57,674 nucleotides of DNA, taken from Rhodospirillaceae bacterium. GTDB lineage: Bacteria > Pseudomonadota > Alphaproteobacteria > Thalassobaculales > Thalassobaculaceae. Position numbers and translations under genes: made by a program. The number at the start of each line of letters is the position of its first letter. Within the stretch, counting starts at the first letter, position 1. Location of the stretch: positions 11,847 through 69,520 of the forward strand of contig PANE01000017.1 of assembly GCA_002708305.1 (NCBI GenBank), in the 5' to 3' direction. The notes beneath the pieces are model-generated. The model saw only the letters and a program-made list of their open reading frames with translations. It searched no databases and was not told the DNA's origin. Below are positions 3,019 to 13,854 of the stretch, piece by piece.

Positions 3019-3888
3019 ATGAAATTAGGCCTTTCTTTTCCACAAACGGAAATTGGTACTGATCCAGTAAAGATAAAGGACTTTATTCAAACTGCTGAGG
3101 GTCTGGGCTATGACTTTATAACGTTTGTAGATCATGTGCTTGGAGAGGAAGCGCCGCGTGGGGCTAGTTTTGCTGGAAACTATACGCGTGATTATATGTT
3201 TCATGAGGTGATGGTTCTGATGGGATATGCTGCCGCAGTTACAAAGACGATAGGCCTGGGAACAGCTGTGATGATATTACCTCAGAGGCAGGCGGTACTT
3301 GTTGCAAAGCAGTCTGCGGAAGTAGACCTTCTATCCGGTGGACGAATGCGATTAGGCGTCGGTTTAGGCTGGAATAAGGTTGAGTACGATGGCCTTGGTA
3401 TGTCGTTTAAAAATCGAGCTAAGCGCTTCAGTGAACAGATAGAGGTGATGCGAGAGCTATGGTCGAATAGGGTTGTCGAATACAGAGGAGAGTTCCACAG
3501 CTTTGATAGTGCAGGTATAAATCCAGAACCAATCCAGCGGCCAATACCTGTTTGGATAGGCGCAATGAAAGATGTCGCTGTTCGACGTGCGGCTCGTATT
3601 GGCGATGGATGGTTCATGTACCCGCGTCAGGAACCGAGTGATGACGCTCACGAGATGATTTCAATTTATCGGCAGGCTGCTGCTGAGGCAGGCCGAGAGC
3701 CAGATAGTTTGGGTATAAATGCGACAGTTTTTGCCAATCAAGGCTTAGGACCAGATGAATGGCGGTCAATTATGGAAAAATGGAAAGAAATGGGCGTAAA
3801 TGAATTCACTTTCCGCACAGCAGAATCAGATCTGAAAAATTTAGAAGCTCATATGAATGCTATAAAAGAAATGGCAGAGGTTAGATAG
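3019..3888 (+). CDS. LLM class oxidoreductase, probably F420-type
   Basis: A 289-residue luciferase-family TIM barrel. It starts MKLGLSFPQTEIG, with an AAGGAG ribosome-binding site about 6-11 bases before the ATG. It carries the VDHVLG strand, the LLSGGRMRLGVGLGWNKVEYDGLG motif near residues 105-130 and the RPIPVWIGAM..VAVRRAARIGDGWF motif near 175-200 that is common in F420-dependent members. It differs clearly from the LLM protein at 1056, so the cluster holds two distinct enzymes of this class. Cofactor choice (FMN or F420) is inference; no F420 biosynthesis gene is in the window. Confidence 0.85.
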   Translation: MKLGLSFPQTEIGTDPVKIKDFIQTAEGLGYDFITFVDHVLGEEAPRGASFAGNYTRDYMFHEVMVLMGYAAAVTKTIGLGTAVMILPQRQAVLVAKQSAEVDLLSGGRMRLGVGLGWNKVEYDGLGMSFKNRAKRFSEQIEVMRELWSNRVVEYRGEFHSFDSAGINPEPIQRPIPVWIGAMKDVAVRRAARIGDGWFMYPRQEPSDDAHEMISIYRQAAAEAGREPDSLGINATVFANQGLGPDEWRSIMEKWKEMGVNEFTFRTAESDLKNLEAHMNAIKEMAEVR

Positions 3889-3897
3889 GGGAAAAAA

Positions 3898-4662
3898 ATG
3901 CGATTAGATCATGTCGTTATTAATGTAAGAGCAGATATGGATGTTGCCGAGGCAACATTTCGTGATCTTGACTTCACTGTTACACCTCGGGGTTATCATA
4001 CGTTGGGGTCCATTAATCATCTGATGATATTCGAAACTGACTATTTAGAATTAATTGGTATTCCCGAGGGGAGAGAGACAAGGCGTGCCGATTTACTAAC
4101 CGCTCCTCTAGGAATCAATGGTCTAGTATTTAAAAGCGAAGATGTTGATGTAACGTTTAACCATCTAAAAGAATTAGGGATGGATGGTGAGCCCCCCAGA
4201 TCTTTTAGTCGGCCTGTTGAAGTCAATCAGAAGACCGTTGATGCTAAATTTAGGACTGTATCGGTGAGGCCGGATGTTTTTCCGGAAGGACGAGTTTACT
4301 TTTGCGAACACGGTACACCCGAGCTTGTTTGGAGAAAAGAGTGGCAAAACCATAAAAATAGAACCACTGCCGTGACAGAAATAGTAGTTGTTACGAATAA
4401 TGTTGCGGGAACTACCACGAATTATACCAACTTAGTTAATAGCAAAGCTGAAATACAGAGTAGCGATCTTGCTAATATTGTAACCGACGATGTGCTGCTT
4501 ACCATTTATTCGCCAGAGCGATATCATGACCGTTATGGAGAAGCGGGTTCAGATCTAGGCGATAGGGGATCTATGTTTGGAGCATTAGTTTTTAAAAGCG
4601 AAGAGAAGTCAAATATCATACGCTTACCAAATTACGACGCTCTATTAGAATTTAAAAACTAG
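3898..4662 (+). CDS. VOC-superfamily (glyoxalase-like domain) protein
   Basis: A 254-residue protein opening with MRLDHVVINVRADMDVAEATFRDLDFTVTPRG, the standard first beta-alpha-beta module of the vicinal oxygen chelate fold, with a metal-ligand-type His5. The segment INHLMIFETDYLELIG (about 41-56) supplies further candidate ligands. A second, weaker module covers about residues 155-250. The pattern resembles the Glyoxalase_3 group, whose members include isomerases, lyases and dioxygenases. It starts nine bases after the LLM gene and ends 12 bases before the racemase-like gene, so co-transcription is likely. Its reaction is not known. Confidence 0.75.
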   Translation: MRLDHVVINVRADMDVAEATFRDLDFTVTPRGYHTLGSINHLMIFETDYLELIGIPEGRETRRADLLTAPLGINGLVFKSEDVDVTFNHLKELGMDGEPPRSFSRPVEVNQKTVDAKFRTVSVRPDVFPEGRVYFCEHGTPELVWRKEWQNHKNRTTAVTEIVVVTNNVAGTTTNYTNLVNSKAEIQSSDLANIVTDDVLLTIYSPERYHDRYGEAGSDLGDRGSMFGALVFKSEEKSNIIRLPNYDALLEFKN

Positions 4663-4674
4663 AAATAAAAGTAG

Positions 4675-5847
4675 ATGCTTATCAGTGGGGATGATACGCG
4701 GTTTGGGACGCATCCGGCGTGGATGGAAATAGATGCACAAGCCTTACGACATAATTTAAAGCAAATACGAAAGCGTGCTGCTTCAAATGTAATGGTAATT
4801 GGTTCCGTCAAGGCTAATGGTTATGGGCATGGCGTTTTACCAATTTGTAAAATTTTAGAAGAGGCTGGGGTTGACATGTTAACCACGGGCTCTTTTTCTG
4901 ATGCTAGAATTCTTAGAAATGAAGGGATTACTACTCCAATTGTAATGCTAGGAGGAGCATTGCCTGTAGGAATTAGTGAGTTAGTCCAAGAAAAAGTTAT
5001 ACCAACTATATATAATATTGAAGCCGCTAATGCTGTAGATGTAGCAGCCGGTTCTATGGGTGCCAATGGTAAGATCCCTGTATTCATCAAGGTCGATTGT
5101 GGCATGGGGCGCCTAGGGATCAGTCTAAGCGGAGCCGTCTCCTTCATAGAAAAGGTATCAAAATTAAAAAATTTATGGATACAAGGTCTGTACACACACC
5201 TATCCTTTAAAGATGAAAATGGAATGGCTTTTGCAGAAAAAAGATTGATTTTATTTTATGACCTAATCGGAGAATTAAAAAAACGTGGCCATAACATTCC
5301 AATCACGCAAGCATTAGCAAGTTCTGCGCTAGCGGTGGGGTGGCAAGATCAATGCAGTGCTATATGCCCAGGCCATCTTCTTTACGGCTTGCCATCAATT
5401 GTTTCTCACTTGGGAGATATAGATGAATTTTTACCTGTCTGTAAGAACGTAAGAACGAGAGTAATTCATTTAGCAGATCATCAAAACGACCCAAATCTGC
5501 GCTCGGGGGGCTACCATACCGAAAGATCGTTACCGAAAACTGGGGTGGTGCCATTTGGCTTAAACGATGGAAATCGTTCATTTTCCAAAGATAAAAAACC
5601 TGTAGTTCTGTTCAAGGGGCAGCGTTTGCCTGTTTTAGGAGTTTCTTTAGAGCACCTAACTTTTGAAATGCCAAATAACGTTGCAATTAATTTAGGGGAT
5701 GTAATCACTATTATCGGTAAGTCGGGTAATGACTGCATCGGAATGGAGGAATTTTCAAGCTGGTTCGACAGCACGAGCCTTGAGACTATGTTATCTTTAA
5801 GTAACCGAATGCCAATTATCTTAAGGAATGAGAACTATAATAGGTAA
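4675..5847 (+). CDS. Alanine-racemase-fold PLP protein with altered active site
   Basis: A 390-residue protein with the two-domain architecture of alanine racemase (fold type III PLP enzymes). The PLP lysine is K46 in SVKANGYGHG, R146 in the GMGRLG motif is kept, and THLSFKD and PGHLLYG are recognisable. Two residues that define the racemase chemistry are changed. The family Arg that contacts the pyridine nitrogen (usual form RPG..LYG) is Cys231. The second catalytic base Tyr (usual form GYADG) is Leu296 in PFGLNDG. The later SMD motif is SLE (324-326). It probably binds PLP but is unlikely to be a standard alanine racemase. It closes the plus-strand run and converges on the hydantoinase gene 24 bases away. 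Confidence 0.8.
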   Translation: MLISGDDTRFGTHPAWMEIDAQALRHNLKQIRKRAASNVMVIGSVKANGYGHGVLPICKILEEAGVDMLTTGSFSDARILRNEGITTPIVMLGGALPVGISELVQEKVIPTIYNIEAANAVDVAAGSMGANGKIPVFIKVDCGMGRLGISLSGAVSFIEKVSKLKNLWIQGLYTHLSFKDENGMAFAEKRLILFYDLIGELKKRGHNIPITQALASSALAVGWQDQCSAICPGHLLYGLPSIVSHLGDIDEFLPVCKNVRTRVIHLADHQNDPNLRSGGYHTERSLPKTGVVPFGLNDGNRSFSKDKKPVVLFKGQRLPVLGVSLEHLTFEMPNNVAINLGDVITIIGKSGNDCIGMEEFSSWFDSTSLETMLSLSNRMPIILRNENYNR

Positions 5848-5871: not shown

Positions 5872-8800
5872 TTATAATGGGTCTCCGAAACCACCGCCAC
5901 CGGGTGTACCTAAAGTGATTATGCTTCCAGGAGAGATAATATGCTGTGTTTTAGGGTCAATTGGTTTACCATTTATTTTGAGAATACCTGTCTCCCCGTC
6001 CCCTCCACCATATAAACCTTTCGCAGGGCTCTTCATGCGCTCAGCTAGAAATGCTAGGATACCGTCCGTCACTCCCGTATATTCTAATTCAACAATTTGT
6101 CCGTCGCCTCCATTATATTTTCCAACTCCTCCTGACCCTTCTCTTAATGCTCTCTTTCTCACTTTTATAGGCAGACGGTTTTCTATCTCTTCTGCCGGTG
6201 TAGATGAGATATTTGAGGGCCAACTAACACAAGATAATCCATCAGCGTCTGCTGAAGCACCCATTCCTCCATTGAAGAAAAATAACCCCGTAATTGGTAT
6301 ACCTATTGCGTTGGTGCCGCTAATATTTACGCACCAAATTGGAGAACCAGCACCCGCTAAAATGCGGTTTGGCGCGACCCTCGATAATGCATCCATTATA
6401 AGCGCGGGGATATAATGTCCAGTTAGAACACGGCTACCAACAGATGCCGGGTGCTGAGGGTTTACTATATTACCTTCTGGAGAAACAACTTTGATTGGTC
6501 TAAGGGCCCCATCATTATTTGGAAGTTCAGGAGCTAAAGCTGATTTAATTGCGTAAGACGTCATTGCGCGCGTATAGCAAAGGGGGCAGTTTACTGCTTT
6601 AGATACTTGCTTCGAGGATCCGGAGTAATCAACTTCTATTGTATCGTCTTTAATTATGACTTCCACTACTATTTCAATTGGTTGTTCAGACAGTCCATCA
6701 GTGGTGACTGATGATTTATATACACCATCGGGTAAGCTTTTTATTTCTTTCCGGGTTGCTTGTTCTGTCCTTCGACATACGGCTTCGGATAATTCGGATA
6801 AATTACCGAGCTGATAAGTATTTATAAGGTCGTTTATGCGCCGTGCCATAGTATCCAGTGCACCAAGTTGGGCTTCTAGGTCCCCCTCAACTTGATCAGC
6901 TACGCGAACGTTCTTTCTTAGCATAGACATTAAAGTTTCATTGACTTCACCCGCATCAATGAGCTTTAACATAGGTATTTGCAACCCTTCCTCGTAAACT
7001 TCTCTTGGTTCGGGAGATCTGATTTTTCCACCAATATCTGGGGCGTGGGCAGTACTCGCTGAGAACCCTATTAATTCGTTGTTATTGAATAGTGGTTTGC
7101 AGACACTGATGTCAGGTAAATGGCCTGTCCCAAGATAAGGGTCGTTGGTGATAAGGACATCTCCAGGTGACAAATTTTCCGACGAAAAATAATTGATAAA
7201 ATGTTTTACTGTATCAGGTAATGTGCCAATAAATGAAGGAATACTGTCAGAAGCTTGCGCCAGAGCATTCCCATCGGAGTCGGTTATAACACAAGAGAAA
7301 TCATAGGATTCGCGAACAACTGTGGAGAAAGAGGAACGTAGTAGAGATGCAGCAGCTTCGTCAGCTGCCGCGATAACCTTGTTCCAAAGAATTTCTAGAT
7401 GTATCGGATCGTCTATTTTGGCTAAAGGTCTTTTAGTCTGACTATCGTCATTTCCTATCTCAATAATTAAATTACCAACGGGATCAATTTTAACACTTGT
7501 ATTGTGAGGCAGTACTGTCGTTGATTGACCTTCCTCTATTATCGCGGGCCCCTTGATGTTTTGGCCGGGTCTAAGTGCTTGTCGGTTAAAAACATTTACT
7601 TCCCTATATAATTCTTCTCCAGGCAAAAGAATTTCCCGGGTCTTATTTATAATACCAGTTTCACCTTGGCTGCCTAATTTTGGTTGTAAATCTTCTTCTG
7701 TCGTTGTGGCTTGGACCTCCACTCTCGCAGTAATGAATTCTACCAACACATTTTCAAAGCATCGCCCATAAGTTATTTGGTGGGCATTATTAAACGCATC
7801 ATTTATGGCTTGAAGTGGGGTGCTTGAAAGTAGTGCGCCTGTGATATCTACAACTAGTACCGCTCCTTGCCCGGAATATCTCAATTCAGCTAAACGGCGT
7901 TTCGAAATTTTAGATGTTTTGATAGATTGTGATATGATTTGAGCAGCTTCATCTTCAAGCTTTGAAAATAAGCCTTCTAATTCTTTTGATTCTATGTCCT
8001 GTATAATTCTTCCAACACTAATGCTCCTATCTACACGAGCCGGTGCAAGGGTCAGTCCTAAAGCAGACGCAACTCCAGCAGCTGGAGGAATAATAACTCG
8101 GCTAATTCCAAGACGCTCGGCTACGGCACAGGCATGTACAGGAGCGGCACCTCCGGTTGCATACAGTGCATAATCTCTGGGGTCACGACCTTTTTTTGCT
8201 AGATGAACTTGTGCAGCCATTGCCATGTTTTCACATACTACTTGATGAATGCCTAACGCTATATTACTGGACGAAACTTTAAATGCTCTACCAAGAGCTT
8301 CCAGTGCTACTACTGATTTTGGCATATTGATACTCAAAGTACCTTCGGAAAAACCCGACGCGTCTAAATATCCCAGATGCAAGTCGGCGTCCGTGACAGT
8401 AACATCAACGCCGCCACGATCGTAACAAACAGGCCCAGGAACTGACCCGGCGCTTTTGGGCCCCACTTTTAACAGATCAAGGCTATCTTTTTTGGCTATA
8501 CTACCACCACCCGCACCGATCTCGACCAACTCCACGGTTGTTATACGGACTGGGAGCCCGCTGCCAGGAGCAAATCGACGTTCTCTAGCAGCCTCAAAAG
8601 AAAAAGTCACTTCTGGACTGCCATCATCCACAATGGCAAGCTTTGCCGTTGTGCCTCCCATGTCAAAAGCCAAAAGTCTATTTTCTCCAGCCTTTCCACC
8701 TATCAAGGCTGCGGAGAGTGCACCAGCGGCAGGACCTGACTCTAATAATTGGACAGGCCTTCTTTTCGCTTCATCTAAATGGGTAAGTCCACCGTTAGAC

Positions 8801-9531
8801 AGCATTAACATCAAGGGGGCTTGTATATCTAGGTTGAGTAAAACGTTTTGAAGCCTGTCAATATATTGACTGGCTAAGGGCTTTATAAAGGCATTTATTA
8901 CGGCGCTGGATGTGCGTTCGAATTCTCCAGGTTCGCGTCCGATATCCGAGGATAAAGTAATAGATAACTCCGGAAAGTGAGAGGCAATTAATTGGCCAGC
9001 CTCTTGCTCATGGGCCGGGTTGATGTGAGAATTAACGAATGATATGGCTATAGATTCAACTCCTTGTTTCTTGAGCCTTGCTATTATGCCAATAAACGCC
9101 TTTTCATCGAGTTTCGTAACAATTTGTCCTGTGTTTGTAATCCGTTCTGAAACCTCATATCGCAAATCTTTGAAAACTAATGGGTCGGGAAAAGTTAAAA
9201 AGAGATCATAGATATCGTATTTGCGTTCACGACGTAGTTCTAGTGTATCCTTAAATCCATCAGAGGTAACTAATCCTGTTTTTGAACCTTTTCGTTCAAT
9301 CAGTGCATTACTGAATAACGTTGTTGCATGGACTACACGTGATATATTATTGCCACCACCTATTTTGGGGAGAAGTTCGGCTAATCCATTTTCCACACCG
9401 ACTTGGGGGGTGGCTGGAGTAGTTAAGACTTTTGCTGTCTCGCAAAAACCGGTTGATGAGTTTAGCGCTACGAGATCAGTAAAGGTTCCGCCAATATCAA
9501 TGCCGAGTGTAAAAAGGTTCTGAGTTTTCAT
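5872..9531 (-). CDS. Hydantoinase/5-oxoprolinase, HyuA-HyuB fusion
   Basis: A 1219-residue protein joining the two subunits of ATP-dependent N-methylhydantoinase/5-oxoprolinase/acetone-carboxylase-type enzymes. The HyuA half (roughly residues 1-690) begins GIDIGGTFTDLVAL and has the second ATPase motif LLAFDMGGTTAKLAIV near 290. The HyuB half (roughly 695-1219) begins DPIHLEILWNKVIAAADEAA, contains TNDPYLGTGHLPDI and ends GTPGGGGFGDPL. This family opens lactam or imide rings (5-oxoproline, hydantoins) using ATP, or carboxylates ketones. The one-chain form is typical of the eukaryotic and some bacterial 5-oxoprolinases. It is transcribed away from the TauD-like gene, across a 205-base region. 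Substrate is not determined. Confidence 0.9.
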   Translation of the reverse strand: MKTQNLFTLGIDIGGTFTDLVALNSSTGFCETAKVLTTPATPQVGVENGLAELLPKIGGGNNISRVVHATTLFSNALIERKGSKTGLVTSDGFKDTLELRRERKYDIYDLFLTFPDPLVFKDLRYEVSERITNTGQIVTKLDEKAFIGIIARLKKQGVESIAISFVNSHINPAHEQEAGQLIASHFPELSITLSSDIGREPGEFERTSSAVINAFIKPLASQYIDRLQNVLLNLDIQAPLMLMLSNGGLTHLDEAKRRPVQLLESGPAAGALSAALIGGKAGENRLLAFDMGGTTAKLAIVDDGSPEVTFSFEAARERRFAPGSGLPVRITTVELVEIGAGGGSIAKKDSLDLLKVGPKSAGSVPGPVCYDRGGVDVTVTDADLHLGYLDASGFSEGTLSINMPKSVVALEALGRAFKVSSSNIALGIHQVVCENMAMAAQVHLAKKGRDPRDYALYATGGAAPVHACAVAERLGISRVIIPPAAGVASALGLTLAPARVDRSISVGRIIQDIESKELEGLFSKLEDEAAQIISQSIKTSKISKRRLAELRYSGQGAVLVVDITGALLSSTPLQAINDAFNNAHQITYGRCFENVLVEFITARVEVQATTTEEDLQPKLGSQGETGIINKTREILLPGEELYREVNVFNRQALRPGQNIKGPAIIEEGQSTTVLPHNTSVKIDPVGNLIIEIGNDDSQTKRPLAKIDDPIHLEILWNKVIAAADEAAASLLRSSFSTVVRESYDFSCVITDSDGNALAQASDSIPSFIGTLPDTVKHFINYFSSENLSPGDVLITNDPYLGTGHLPDISVCKPLFNNNELIGFSASTAHAPDIGGKIRSPEPREVYEEGLQIPMLKLIDAGEVNETLMSMLRKNVRVADQVEGDLEAQLGALDTMARRINDLINTYQLGNLSELSEAVCRRTEQATRKEIKSLPDGVYKSSVTTDGLSEQPIEIVVEVIIKDDTIEVDYSGSSKQVSKAVNCPLCYTRAMTSYAIKSALAPELPNNDGALRPIKVVSPEGNIVNPQHPASVGSRVLTGHYIPALIMDALSRVAPNRILAGAGSPIWCVNISGTNAIGIPITGLFFFNGGMGASADADGLSCVSWPSNISSTPAEEIENRLPIKVRKRALREGSGGVGKYNGGDGQIVELEYTGVTDGILAFLAERMKSPAKGLYGGGDGETGILKINGKPIDPKTQHIISPGSIITLGTPGGGGFGDPL

Positions 9532-9627: not shown

Positions 9628-9736
9628 TAATGTATTACAGCATAATTGGGGTAGATCGTTTCTATTTTTGCAAATACTGTGATTTTGCGGGATGGTTTTT
9701 TACTAGATCAGAAGTTAAATAGATTTGGAGTTAAAG

Positions 9737-10591
9737 ATGACTATTTTGGTTAATCGATTAACGGATAATTTCGCAGCAGAAATTCGCGGTGTCGATTTAA
9801 GTCAAAAGATTCCATCAGGCGACTTTGCAGATATCAAAACAGCGTTTGAACAACACTCTATTTTAGTTTTCCCAGATCAACCTCTTACGGACCAACAGCA
9901 AATCATATTTTCTGAGAGATTTGGAGAATTAGAAAAGACAATAAACTCAAAGAAACAGAGTGGTGCAGGAAAACCAGTCACGGTACTGACGAATGTTGGC
10001 AAAGGTGGTGAGGTTATTGCGCCCGAAGATAGAAGAATGGTTTTCAACACTGGAAATCAAATGTGGCACACAGATAGTTCTTTTAAACCAGTACCGGCAA
10101 TGATGTCATTATTATCGGGTCGAGAGGTCCCGTCGGAAGGGGGGGAGACCGAATTTGCTAGCATGCGCGCTGCTTACGATGGTCTGGATGATAAACAAAA
10201 AAATGAACTCGAACATTTGATATGCATACACGACTTTGCCTACTCGAGAAGTTTGATAGATACAAGCCTCTTAGATAGGGAAGATAGGCACGAATTGCCC
10301 CCTGTCAGACAAGCTATGATCCGTATCAACCCAGTAAACCGAAGGAAAAACTTATTCCTCGGTGCCCATGCTTCCTATGTCGAGGGATGGCCCCTAGAAA
10401 AGGGCCGCACTCTGATTATCGAACTTAACAGGCATATAACTGATAATAAATATATCTATAAGCATACGTGGAAACGCAATGATCTAGTGATATGGGATAA
10501 TAGGTGCGCTTTGCATCGAGGGCGTCCTTGGCAAAAAATTGATAAACGCGTAATGCACAGGACGACCGTCGTTGGCTCTATGACTGTTTAG
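9737..10591 (+). CDS. TauD/TfdA-family 2-oxoglutarate-dependent dioxygenase
   Basis: A 284-residue Fe(II)/2-oxoglutarate oxygenase. The metal triad is visible as H111 and D113 in MWHTDSSF and H260 in CALHRG, and R275 (MHRTTV) fits the 2-oxoglutarate carboxylate contact. Members hydroxylate sulfonates, aryloxyacids and similar compounds, which often leads to cleavage. I chose the ATG at 9737 because GGAG lies six bases before it; a TTG four codons upstream would bury that site. It is divergent from the hydantoinase gene and followed by the GntR regulator, which suggests one regulated catabolic locus. The substrate is unknown. Confidence 0.88.
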   Translation: MTILVNRLTDNFAAEIRGVDLSQKIPSGDFADIKTAFEQHSILVFPDQPLTDQQQIIFSERFGELEKTINSKKQSGAGKPVTVLTNVGKGGEVIAPEDRRMVFNTGNQMWHTDSSFKPVPAMMSLLSGREVPSEGGETEFASMRAAYDGLDDKQKNELEHLICIHDFAYSRSLIDTSLLDREDRHELPPVRQAMIRINPVNRRKNLFLGAHASYVEGWPLEKGRTLIIELNRHITDNKYIYKHTWKRNDLVIWDNRCALHRGRPWQKIDKRVMHRTTVVGSMTV

Positions 10592-10714: not shown

Positions 10715-11404
10715 ATGGAATTAAGACATAGTTTGGCCATAGACCTTTCAAAGTGTGAATATCAAGCGCCAGATAGCCAAACAGAGATCGCATATCATCA
10801 GTTGGAAGAAAAAATAGTGTTGCTGGAATTTTCTCCTGGACTAATAGTAACTGAGAAGGATTTTTCAGAATCAATTGGTTTCGGAAGGACACCAGTTAGG
10901 GAAGCAATTCAAAGGCTCGCCATGGCTGGTCTTTTAAACGTTTTACCTCGCCGTGGGATTAAGGTCTCAGATCTTGATGCATGTTCAGTCTTAAGACTTT
11001 TAGAAGTTAATAGAGGGCTTGATGACTTAGTCGCTCGAAGCTCTGCCGTAAGAGCTACGAATGAGCAGAGGTTAGAATTTTCACGCTTAGCGGAAGAGTT
11101 CGATGACATAGCAGAAAGAAATGATGTTGTTGCCCAAGTTCGCCTTGATAGTGACTTTAATAATCTTTGTATGCTTGCGATGGGAAATGAGCACGCTAAT
11201 AAAATGTGTAGATTGTTACAGCCTATAATGCGGAGGTTCTGGTTTGCGCATACAAGGATGGTTGGTGATACCCGCCTCATATCAAGAATGCATGGCCAAG
11301 CAGCGAGGTCGGTTGCGGAGGGCGATGAGGATAAGGCGGCGAAAGCATTTACACGAATTGTTGATTCGAATAGGAGTTTTGTTCAGTCCGTAATTTACAA
11401 ATAA
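10715..11404 (+). CDS. GntR-family transcriptional regulator (FCD domain)
   Basis: A 229-residue regulator. The N-terminal winged helix-turn-helix (about residues 22-90) shows the GntR signature: VTEKDFSESIGFGRTPVREAIQRLAMAGLL, followed by the wing LPRRGIKV. The C-terminal alpha-helical FCD ligand-binding domain (about 100-225) contains the D..F and H residues expected for a metal or carboxylate effector pocket (LDSDFNNL; SRMHGQAARSV). FCD regulators usually respond to small organic acids that feed the controlled pathway. It lies downstream of the dioxygenase gene and upstream of an MFS gene, so it is the likely local regulator of the cluster. Confidence 0.88.
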   Translation: MELRHSLAIDLSKCEYQAPDSQTEIAYHQLEEKIVLLEFSPGLIVTEKDFSESIGFGRTPVREAIQRLAMAGLLNVLPRRGIKVSDLDACSVLRLLEVNRGLDDLVARSSAVRATNEQRLEFSRLAEEFDDIAERNDVVAQVRLDSDFNNLCMLAMGNEHANKMCRLLQPIMRRFWFAHTRMVGDTRLISRMHGQAARSVAEGDEDKAAKAFTRIVDSNRSFVQSVIYK

Positions 11405-11548: not shown

Positions 11549-12823
11549 TTGTCTGATTTTGGGTTTAAGGCAGCAATGTTGCAGTATTTTCAGTTTGTAA
11601 AGAGTAACGTTCGATTTCTGGGGTTCGGCTATTTTACAGCCTTTATTTCGACTTTTGGCCAAACTTTTTATATTGCTATGTATAGCGGTGAGCTTAGAGC
11701 TACTTTTGATCTCAGCCATGGTGAATTTGCGAATATATACGCGATTGGAACTTTAAGTAGTGGTTTGTTATTAATTTGGTTAGGTAAATTAATAGACCGA
11801 TTTGATCTTCGCTCTTATTCATTCTTTTTATGTCTTGGGATGGCCGTTGCATGTCTTTCTATATCCTTTGCCCAAGGTATAATAATGCTTACGGTGTCTA
11901 TCTTTTTACTTCGGATTACAGGGCAGGGCCTCTTGAGCCAAGCTGCCACCGTCACCATGGCACGATATTTTGATGACAATAGTAGGGGGCGTGCTGTCAG
12001 TCTCGCGGCACTTGGCTTCCCGAGTGGGCAAGCAATATTTCCGGCAGCGTCTGTTCTAGTTCTTGTTATTGTACCGTGGCGAAGCGTTTGGCTATTCAGC
12101 GCAATTATTTTGTTTGCTCTTGTTCCCCCATTATTATTTTGGCTTTTAAAAGGTCACAGAGTTAGGCATGAAAATTTTTTGGCCACTAATAAAAAAATAA
12201 AAAACCTAGACCTTAGCAATAAACGAAGGCAATGGACACGGATCCAGGTCCTTAAAGATATGAGGTTTTTCCTTGCTATGATTGCTATGATGTCCACCGC
12301 TTTTGTGATTACTGGATTAAATTTTCACCAAGTTCATTTAACCGAAATAAAAGGGTGGGATCTATCCGTTTATGCCTCGTGTTTTGTTATATATGCAACA
12401 TGCCAAGTGGCAATGTCAGTAGTCACCGGCATGTTGGTTGATAGATATGGAGCATTAAGTTTAACACCTTTTTACATGGTGCCCATGATTTGTGCCACAT
12501 TCGTTTTGGCTTATTTTGATGCCTCCGCCACTATTATCGCCTTTATGGCGTTAGCAGGGATAACTGGAGGCGCAACTGCTACAATAATATCGACAGTTTG
12601 GGCGGAACTCTATGGCGTTTTACATTTAGGATCCATTAAAGCTATGGTAGCGGGCATTCAAGTTATAGCAAGCGCTCTTGGGCCGGCTGTCTTTGGGTGG
12701 TTAATAGACTCAGGTACAAATATTGAGCACATCTCTCTCGCATGCGGTATTTATTCTTTTCTAGGCTGTATACTATTAGCCAGCCTTTTTAAGCCTAGAC
12801 TTTTGATGCCGTGGAAGATGTGA
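11549..12823 (+). CDS. Major facilitator superfamily transporter
   Basis: A polytopic membrane protein of up to 424 residues with about 12 predicted hydrophobic segments and a basic central loop (around residues 205-235, rich in K and R) between the two six-helix halves. The loop LIDRFDLRS after helix 2 and LVDRYGALS in the second half match the MFS A-motif positions (D-R pairs). It resembles the monocarboxylate/oxalate-formate type of MFS, but I cannot name a substrate. The start is uncertain: TTG at 11549 as given, or ATG at 11576, which has AAGG five bases upstream. The position after the GntR gene suggests uptake of the compound degraded by the cluster. Confidence 0.8.
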   Translation: MSDFGFKAAMLQYFQFVKSNVRFLGFGYFTAFISTFGQTFYIAMYSGELRATFDLSHGEFANIYAIGTLSSGLLLIWLGKLIDRFDLRSYSFFLCLGMAVACLSISFAQGIIMLTVSIFLLRITGQGLLSQAATVTMARYFDDNSRGRAVSLAALGFPSGQAIFPAASVLVLVIVPWRSVWLFSAIILFALVPPLLFWLLKGHRVRHENFLATNKKIKNLDLSNKRRQWTRIQVLKDMRFFLAMIAMMSTAFVITGLNFHQVHLTEIKGWDLSVYASCFVIYATCQVAMSVVTGMLVDRYGALSLTPFYMVPMICATFVLAYFDASATIIAFMALAGITGGATATIISTVWAELYGVLHLGSIKAMVAGIQVIASALGPAVFGWLIDSGTNIEHISLACGIYSFLGCILLASLFKPRLLMPWKM

Positions 12824-12837
12824 TCAGTTTATTAAAC

Positions 12838-13854
12838 CTAGCTACGAAAATATTTAGAAAATGCAGAGATTATCATAGGAATGTCTTTTTCCTTAATGTC
12901 TCTATGCAATACCAAACGAAAAGTAGGGGGACGTCCCCCTATCAGGATGCCATTTTGTTTGAGAAACTCTTTGAGAGGATCACGGTCTGCCTCTGGGACT
13001 TCAATAAAAATCATATTAGTATTCGCCCCTTCAGGTGCTGTTTGGACCTCAGGGATTTGTGCTAGTTCAGTTGCTAGGCGAGATGCTAAACGATGGTCCT
13101 CTTCTAATCTATCAATCTGTGTTTGGACGGCCACCAAACCACAGGCGGCAAGTATTCCTGCTTGACGCATCCCCCCACCCAGCATTTTTCTTGCCCTTCG
13201 AGCCTCTTTTATAAAGTCAGATTTGCCTGTAAGTACGGATCCAACCGGGGCTCCTAATCCTTTTGATAAGCATAACGAAACTGTAGTAAAACCGCGAGTG
13301 AGATCTTTTGGTGAACAACCGTAAGCAATCGCTGCGTTCATTAAACGGGCTCCATCTAAATGGGATGATAGTCCATGTTTGGATGCAACATTAGCTGCTG
13401 TTGTCATATAATCTGGGGACAAAGCTTTTCCATTATAGGTGTTCTCAAAGCATATTAGCTTAGTTCTTGGAAAGTGCATGTCCTCTGGTTTAATTTTAGA
13501 CTCTATTAAATCAATATCGACGGAGCCATCGTTCTTTACGGGAATAGTTTGCGGGATAATACCCCCAAGCGCTGCAGTACCCACTGCTTCGGATTTATAA
13601 ACATGATAAGTTTCCCCGATAATATACTCATCGCCACGACCACAATGGGTTAATAATGCTGTGAAGTTTGATTGTGTGCCAGACGTGACAAACATGCCAG
13701 CTTCAAAGCCTAGCATTTCTGCGACTGTTTGTTCTAATTCATTTATTGTTGGATCGTCTCCGTAAACGTCGTCACCAACTACCGCTTTTGCCATAGCATC
13801 ATACATTTCAGGTGTTGGTTTGGTCACCGTATCGCTGCGTAGATCAATCATCAA
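12838..13854 (-). CDS. ltaE: L-threonine aldolase (low-specificity type)
   Basis: A 338-residue fold type I PLP enzyme that cleaves L-threonine and L-allo-threonine to glycine and acetaldehyde. It begins MIDLRSDTVTKPT, the family hallmark, with VGDDVYGDDPT next. The PLP lysine is K198 in SLCLSKGLGAPVGS. H84 (ETYHVY) stacks on the cofactor, and D167/R170 (HLDGARL) complete the pocket. Length is normal. It converges on the MFS gene with only 14 bases between the stops, and the SDR gene lies upstream on the same strand. Confidence 0.9.
   Translation of the reverse strand: MMIDLRSDTVTKPTPEMYDAMAKAVVGDDVYGDDPTINELEQTVAEMLGFEAGMFVTSGTQSNFTALLTHCGRGDEYIIGETYHVYKSEAVGTAALGGIIPQTIPVKNDGSVDIDLIESKIKPEDMHFPRTKLICFENTYNGKALSPDYMTTAANVASKHGLSSHLDGARLMNAAIAYGCSPKDLTRGFTTVSLCLSKGLGAPVGSVLTGKSDFIKEARRARKMLGGGMRQAGILAACGLVAVQTQIDRLEEDHRLASRLATELAQIPEVQTAPEGANTNMIFIEVPEADRDPLKEFLKQNGILIGGRPPTFRLVLHRDIKEKDIPMIISAFSKYFRS

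Follow-up and report, generated by a model that had tools for sequence, protein, structure and literature searches.

The closest described counterpart of the gene studied here is alanine racemase (Alr, EC 5.1.1.1; TIGR00492), represented below by the Geobacillus enzyme (GsAlr, 1SFT/1BD0). Replacement of Tyr265 by Ala turned GsAlr into a D-threonine aldolase in the work of Seebeck and Hilvert, with His166 as the base for the beta-hydroxyl proton, and natural D-threonine aldolase places a neutral Gln (Gln249) at the ring nitrogen of PLP (PMC4401734, PMC6411801). Similarly, the Y274F substitution in E. coli Alr, which affects the Tyr of the GYADG motif, enlarged the pocket for bulkier substrates (PMC5025676). 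Other fold-III relatives include the natural D-serine and D-3-hydroxyaspartate dehydratases, as well as PLPBP/YggS, a single-domain PLP-containing barrel. A further system of relevance is the ATP-dependent hydantoinase/oxoprolinase module (HyuA/HyuB, caprolactamase CapAB), for which our literature search found no link to an alanine racemase homologue.

Within the window, meaning the whole 57,674-nucleotide stretch of DNA analysed, positions 4675-5847 (+ strand) contain a single uninterrupted open reading frame of 390 amino acids, which we term AlrL. It is 22-27% identical to Alr and shares its two-domain fold and many of its PLP-site residues but, unlike Alr, it lacks the equivalents of Arg219, Tyr265, Tyr284, Tyr354 and Met312, carries Glu for Asp313, and resides in a catabolic cluster in which HyuA/HyuB homologues adjoin it. 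As in the engineered GsAlr aldolase, a small residue occupies position 265 while His166 and the PLP lysine are kept; however, AlrL is a natural protein that additionally lacks Arg219, Tyr284 and Tyr354, and for which aldolase activity is only a candidate.

The AlrL fold and its altered active site

Pfam assigns to AlrL an Ala_racemase_N domain (4.7e-46) and an Ala_racemase_C domain (2e-12), and the protein scores 202 bits against the NCBIfam alr equivalog TIGR00492 (cut-off 168). An AlphaFold2 monomer model built from 13 sequences (mean pLDDT 84.5, pTM 0.85) agrees with known Alr structures. In a Foldseek search of the PDB the alanine racemases among its top-ranked matches gave TM 0.80-0.88, and nearly all of the best 50 listed matches were fold-mate racemases (alanine, VanT serine, lysine and broad-spectrum), together with engineered proteins. 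The presence of the Alr C-terminal domain sets AlrL apart from single-barrel PLPBP/YggS proteins. Likewise, the two Ala_racemase domains are its only Pfam matches at E <= 0.001, which places it outside the D-threonine aldolase/D-serine dehydratase group; a profile of the clade described below does match D-threonine aldolases weakly, over the N-terminal barrel.

To map the active site we aligned AlrL to the GsAlr sequence and checked the numbering. Eight GsAlr residues are kept, all encoded on the forward strand: Lys39 as the PLP Schiff-base lysine Lys46 (4810-4812), Tyr43 as Tyr50, the carbamylated Lys129 as Lys139, Asp131 as Asp141, Arg136 as Arg146 (5110-5112), His166, the proposed base of the Y265A aldolase, as His175 (5197-5199; PMC4401734), Ser204 as Ser216, and Gly221 as Gly233. 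The initial annotation, made from the DNA letters, had reported retention of Lys46 and Arg146 and replacement by Cys231 of the Arg that contacts the PLP nitrogen. Both readings are borne out, the latter because GsAlr NMVRFG aligns with AlrL SAICPG and thereby places Cys231 (5365-5367, + strand) at the Arg219 position.

The catalytic Tyr required a different assignment. It had been read as lost at Leu296, the position of the GYADG Tyr; the loss is real, but the position was mistaken. In PDB entry 1xqk, whose title names the Y265F mutant, the sequence KVSFGATY stands 19 residues ahead of GYADG; Tyr265 thus belongs to a (G/S)Y-G motif, and residue 284 is the Tyr of GYADG. The same separation of 19 residues is found between catalytic Tyr263' and entryway Tyr282' of S. 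pneumoniae Alr (PMC3146814); the E. coli counterparts are Tyr255' and Tyr274' (PMC5025676). Therefore Leu296 (5560-5562, + strand) occupies the site of the gate Tyr284, and Ser277 (5503-5505, + strand) that of the catalytic Tyr265. Spacing in this region is gapless, with 15 residues from Arg250 to Tyr265 as from R262 to S277, and 19 from Tyr265 to Tyr284 as from S277 to L296. The sole candidate for a substitute Tyr is Tyr280 (GGYH; 5512-5514, + strand), three residues past Ser277 and out of register with Tyr265. Model confidence is low around Tyr280 (residues 271-280, pLDDT about 57), and its conservation extends across the window's family but not to other Cys-group proteins. Five further changes had been overlooked: Leu325-Glu326 for Met312-Asp313 (5647-5652, + strand), Y354 to L369, N203 to A215, and I222 to H234. 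In sum, the PLP-holding half of the active site is retained, while the L-face base, the ring-nitrogen Arg and three entrance-narrowing tyrosines have gone.

A distinct branch of the alanine racemase family

Variants were gathered from genome searches and plasmid records, and the resulting 50 were aligned with 24 canonical Alr proteins. The check proposed in the initial annotation, whether the substitutions mark a clade, returned one branch: in a maximum-likelihood tree 49 variant rows group together with support of 100/99 and all 24 Arg-bearing rows fall outside, a split on which smaller trees agree. Taken together, these results strongly support the existence of the clade, which is found mostly in Alphaproteobacteria. 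Canonical proteins carry Arg219, Tyr265, Tyr284, Met312 and Asp313 without exception (24/24). None of the 50 variants has Arg at position 219, where Cys (28), Asn (10), Asp (9), Ala (2) and Ser (1) are found instead, and none has Tyr at position 284; position 313 is Glu in 47 of the 49 readable rows and Gln in 2, the region being missing from the remaining row. AlrL, with a non-Arg residue at 219, a non-Tyr residue at 284 and Glu at 313, fits this pattern and lies inside the branch. Tyr265 is absent from 46 of 50; the four that keep it (L108 and the Bosea, Caballeronia and S. meliloti proteins) are all of non-Cys types. By comparison, the Lys39, Arg136 and His166 positions are invariant in the variants. 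Indeed, conservation of the PLP-site residues, of Glu326 and, within the Cys types, of His234 holds between proteins only 25-55% identical, and four close AlrL pairs gave dN/dS values of 0.13-0.18, indicating purifying selection. Because they are fixed across the clade under such selection, these changes exceed what chance would produce.

In an even draw of the class, 17 of 385 genomes carry the variant, counted after removal of canonical matches and with one low-scoring match (G081) left unread. Its frequency is far higher in one order, that of genome G102, where 14 of 15 genomes have it. Matches of 200-300 bits in other classes were considered as distant members, but the 21 whose residues were read, a set that left out a further group from a second profile, have Arg and Tyr and were treated as canonical.

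Two subtypes are found in named bacteria. In the Ala-at-219, Arg-at-284 subtype of Sinorhizobium meliloti plasmid pRRI128_3 (L184) and Phyllobacterium (L183), the gene is annotated 'alanine racemase' and adjoins a phosphodiesterase or metallophosphoesterase and a sugar-type ABC transporter. An Asp-at-219, Trp-at-284 subtype, annotated 'alr', occurs in Sinorhizobium medicae (L187), Agrobacterium vitis (L188) and Shinella (L189); the A. vitis and Shinella genes sit within an amino-acid ABC transporter operon and that of S. medicae adjoins a solute-binding protein gene.

The clade members that we looked up in annotated records are mostly called 'alr, alanine racemase', some with a peptidoglycan biosynthesis term. 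Since records are so named and AlrL passes the equivalog cut-off, pathway reconstructions and antibiotic-target searches will count the clade as racemases, a name that is probably wrong for all of it. The clade also offers a natural substitution series at Arg219, a residue thought to control PLP reaction choice. Cultured Sinorhizobium, Agrobacterium, Bosea and Caballeronia contain relatives, among them WP_027990949.1 of Sinorhizobium meliloti and WP_149134251.1 of Bosea, which together with the series opens the control of reaction specificity in fold-III PLP enzymes to direct tests.

Gene neighbourhoods of AlrL and its relatives

The window's cluster was annotated with Pfam and, where stated, NCBIfam. 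Upstream of AlrL on the same strand, and supported also by synteny, lie a luciferase-like monooxygenase (LLM; 1056-2135), an enoyl-CoA hydratase/isomerase family protein (ECH; 2163-2951), a second LLM of the TIGR03619 family (3019-3888; Pfam and NCBIfam) and, directly upstream across a 12 bp gap, a Glyoxalase_3 (VOC) protein (3898-4662). Convergent with AlrL across a 24 bp gap is a fused HyuA-HyuB protein of the ATP-dependent hydantoinase/oxoprolinase type (5872-9531, - strand, 1219 aa; Pfam and NCBIfam), followed by a TauD-family Fe(II)/2-oxoglutarate dioxygenase (9725-10591, +), a GntR/FCD transcriptional regulator (10715-11404, +), an MFS transporter (11549-12823, +) and a GntG-family PLP aldolase of the fold-I L-threonine-aldolase type (12838-13854, -; NCBIfam NF041359, 445 bits, cut-off 230). 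One cluster thereby pairs a fold-I threonine-aldolase type with a fold-III candidate aldolase. The top NCBIfam match of the fused hydantoinase is caprolactamase alpha, under that model's cut-off; HyuA and HyuB are separate genes in Bosea and at L102, L105, L108 and L109.

Wherever the contig allows, the window's family keeps the order GAF, LLM, (ECH), LLM, VOC, AlrL, converging HyuAB, TauD, GntR, (Rieske), MFS, GntG aldolase. A Rieske-type oxygenase gene lies between GntR and MFS in sister genera (L040, L041, L043, L044, L046) and is absent from the clusters of the window, L037 and L038. The co-occurrence with LLM, VOC and hydantoinase genes raised by the initial annotation thus holds throughout this family, within which VOC was followed; beyond it, the partner that recurs is the hydantoinase/oxoprolinase pair, found at L102, L105, L108, L109, L119-L128 and in Bosea and Caballeronia. 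Neighbours were detected with profiles grown from single seeds, so that the following counts are lower bounds: 25 of the 43 variant loci have HyuA/HyuB genes no farther than 7.5 kb away, compared with none of the 22 canonical alr loci (Fisher 9e-7, a statistic inflated by relatedness among loci), while Fe/2OG dioxygenase genes (TauD or ectoine-hydroxylase-like PhyH) and LLM genes each occur at 15 of 43 versus 0 of 22, associations that relatedness likewise inflates and that stem mostly from one syntenic family. At least five changes of the hydantoinase label are required on the tree, and its pairing with AlrL is therefore not simply one inherited event.

Hydantoinase-free variants adjoin M20 deacylase or amidase genes, PhyH genes or amino-acid ABC transporters. 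From these contexts we infer that the loci commonly serve to take up and break down compounds resembling amides, lactams or amino acids. At L099 (9745-13121) the AlrL gene is followed by ectoine-hydroxylase-like PhyH, GTP-cyclohydrolase-II-like and DUF1688 genes, the last two of which resemble the yeast URC1/URC4 uracil-catabolism pair.

Candidate reactions for AlrL

The central proposal of the initial annotation, that this is not a normal alanine racemase and carries out altered PLP chemistry within a degradation cluster, is supported, and we consider it likely that AlrL is a catabolic PLP enzyme other than alanine racemase. The clade is a large and unrecognised branch of the Alr family, often placed beside ring-opening degradation enzymes, and probably performs a different vitamin-B6 reaction; it also points to an undescribed hydantoinase-linked catabolic step.

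Our best combined explanation, plausible though short of probable, is that AlrL belongs to a hitherto unnamed clade of the alanine racemase family and is a PLP-dependent enzyme of fold type III, serving small-molecule catabolism often beside an ATP-dependent hydantoinase/oxoprolinase, with retro-aldol chemistry favoured. PLP would be held by Lys46, Tyr50, Lys139, Arg146, His175, Ser216 and Gly233, and the means for two-base racemisation of small substrates would be gone through the replacement of Arg219 by Cys, of Tyr265 by Ser, of Tyr284, Tyr354 and Met312 by Leu, and of Asp313 by Glu. Lys46 and PLP could then work on a bulkier amino acid of D configuration from a single face, with His175 taking the beta-hydroxyl proton so that the bond between C-alpha and C-beta is cleaved; the Fe/2OG dioxygenase neighbours could supply beta-hydroxylated substrates. 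Retro-aldol cleavage of a D-beta-hydroxy amino acid is the likeliest single reaction, albeit a tentative assignment, and is favoured because of the Y265A and Y274F precedents and because the neutral Gln of D-threonine aldolase is matched by the neutral Cys of AlrL. Several points weigh against it: four of the 50 members keep Tyr at position 265, an L-threonine-type fold-I aldolase is already present in the same cluster, and the dioxygenase linkage is much weaker than the hydantoinase linkage. In addition, the role of Tyr265 could be filled by Tyr280 in the window's family. Proteins of the Asp subtype are expected to protonate the ring nitrogen, a sign that the chemistry may differ within the clade. 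A wider possibility, which we put forward cautiously, is that the clade is a natural Alr descendant bearing the engineers' Tyr265 change and performing a new non-racemase (e.g. C-C cleaving) PLP step beside hydantoinases, with the ring-nitrogen residue (Cys/Asn/Asp/Ala) setting the reaction of each sub-branch.

Two other reactions are unlikely to a similar degree. Dedicated racemases are known from hydantoin pathways, and AlrL, given its hydantoinase partnership, might racemise or epimerise a hydantoinase product with Lys46 and a substitute base (Tyr280, His175 or a cysteine), opening both isomers to a stereospecific enzyme. The conservation of Tyr280 in the window's family would suit such a role; however, this residue is unaligned with Tyr265 and not conserved in other Cys-group members, and no clade member keeps Arg219, the residue that tunes Alr for racemisation. 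Alternatively, AlrL might catalyse beta-elimination from a D-amino acid, as a dehydratase or a lyase. In mammalian serine dehydratase, an eliminating enzyme, Cys303 contacts the PLP ring nitrogen. This Cys forms a hydrogen bond with PLP (PMC555945). E. coli Alr Y274F acquires beta-elimination, but at a very slow rate of about 10 turnovers per hour (PMC5025676). Moreover, the metal site of known fold-III D-serine dehydratases contains a His/Cys pair; that of the D-threonine aldolase AxDTA is His347/Asp349 (PMC4401734).

The option of a PLP-binding non-enzyme, also raised by the initial annotation and conceivable as a sensor or PLP carrier, would accommodate the loss of catalytic residues and has a parallel in fold-mate PLPBP proteins, which have no known enzyme activity (PMC9605639). 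We regard it as improbable, given the new clade-specific conserved residues (Glu326, Cys231, His234), the recurrent pairing with metabolic genes and a GntR regulator already present in the cluster. Slightly less probable still is a decarboxylase- or transaminase-type reaction at C-alpha: the Asp subtypes do resemble the acidic ring-nitrogen residue of fold-III ornithine decarboxylase (PMC6411801), but the window protein has a non-acidic Cys.

Finally, that AlrL is an ordinary alanine racemase tolerating its substitutions for cell-wall synthesis is very improbable, since, although it passes the alr equivalog cut-off and the window's assembly (92% complete, so that the absence is probably a gap) yielded no canonical alr, both Tyr265 and Arg219 are missing and genus-mates have both genes. 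Genus- and family-mates such as G001, G003, G004, G010, G011 and G020 encode a canonical Alr too, about 25% identical with Arg and Tyr intact; AlrL is therefore not the housekeeping enzyme of the genus-mates, and a cell-wall role was rejected. In one genus-mate, another contig (G001:C2:134179-134385) bears a C-terminal AlrL-like fragment, 55% identical and with an in-frame TGA, possibly a degraded second copy.
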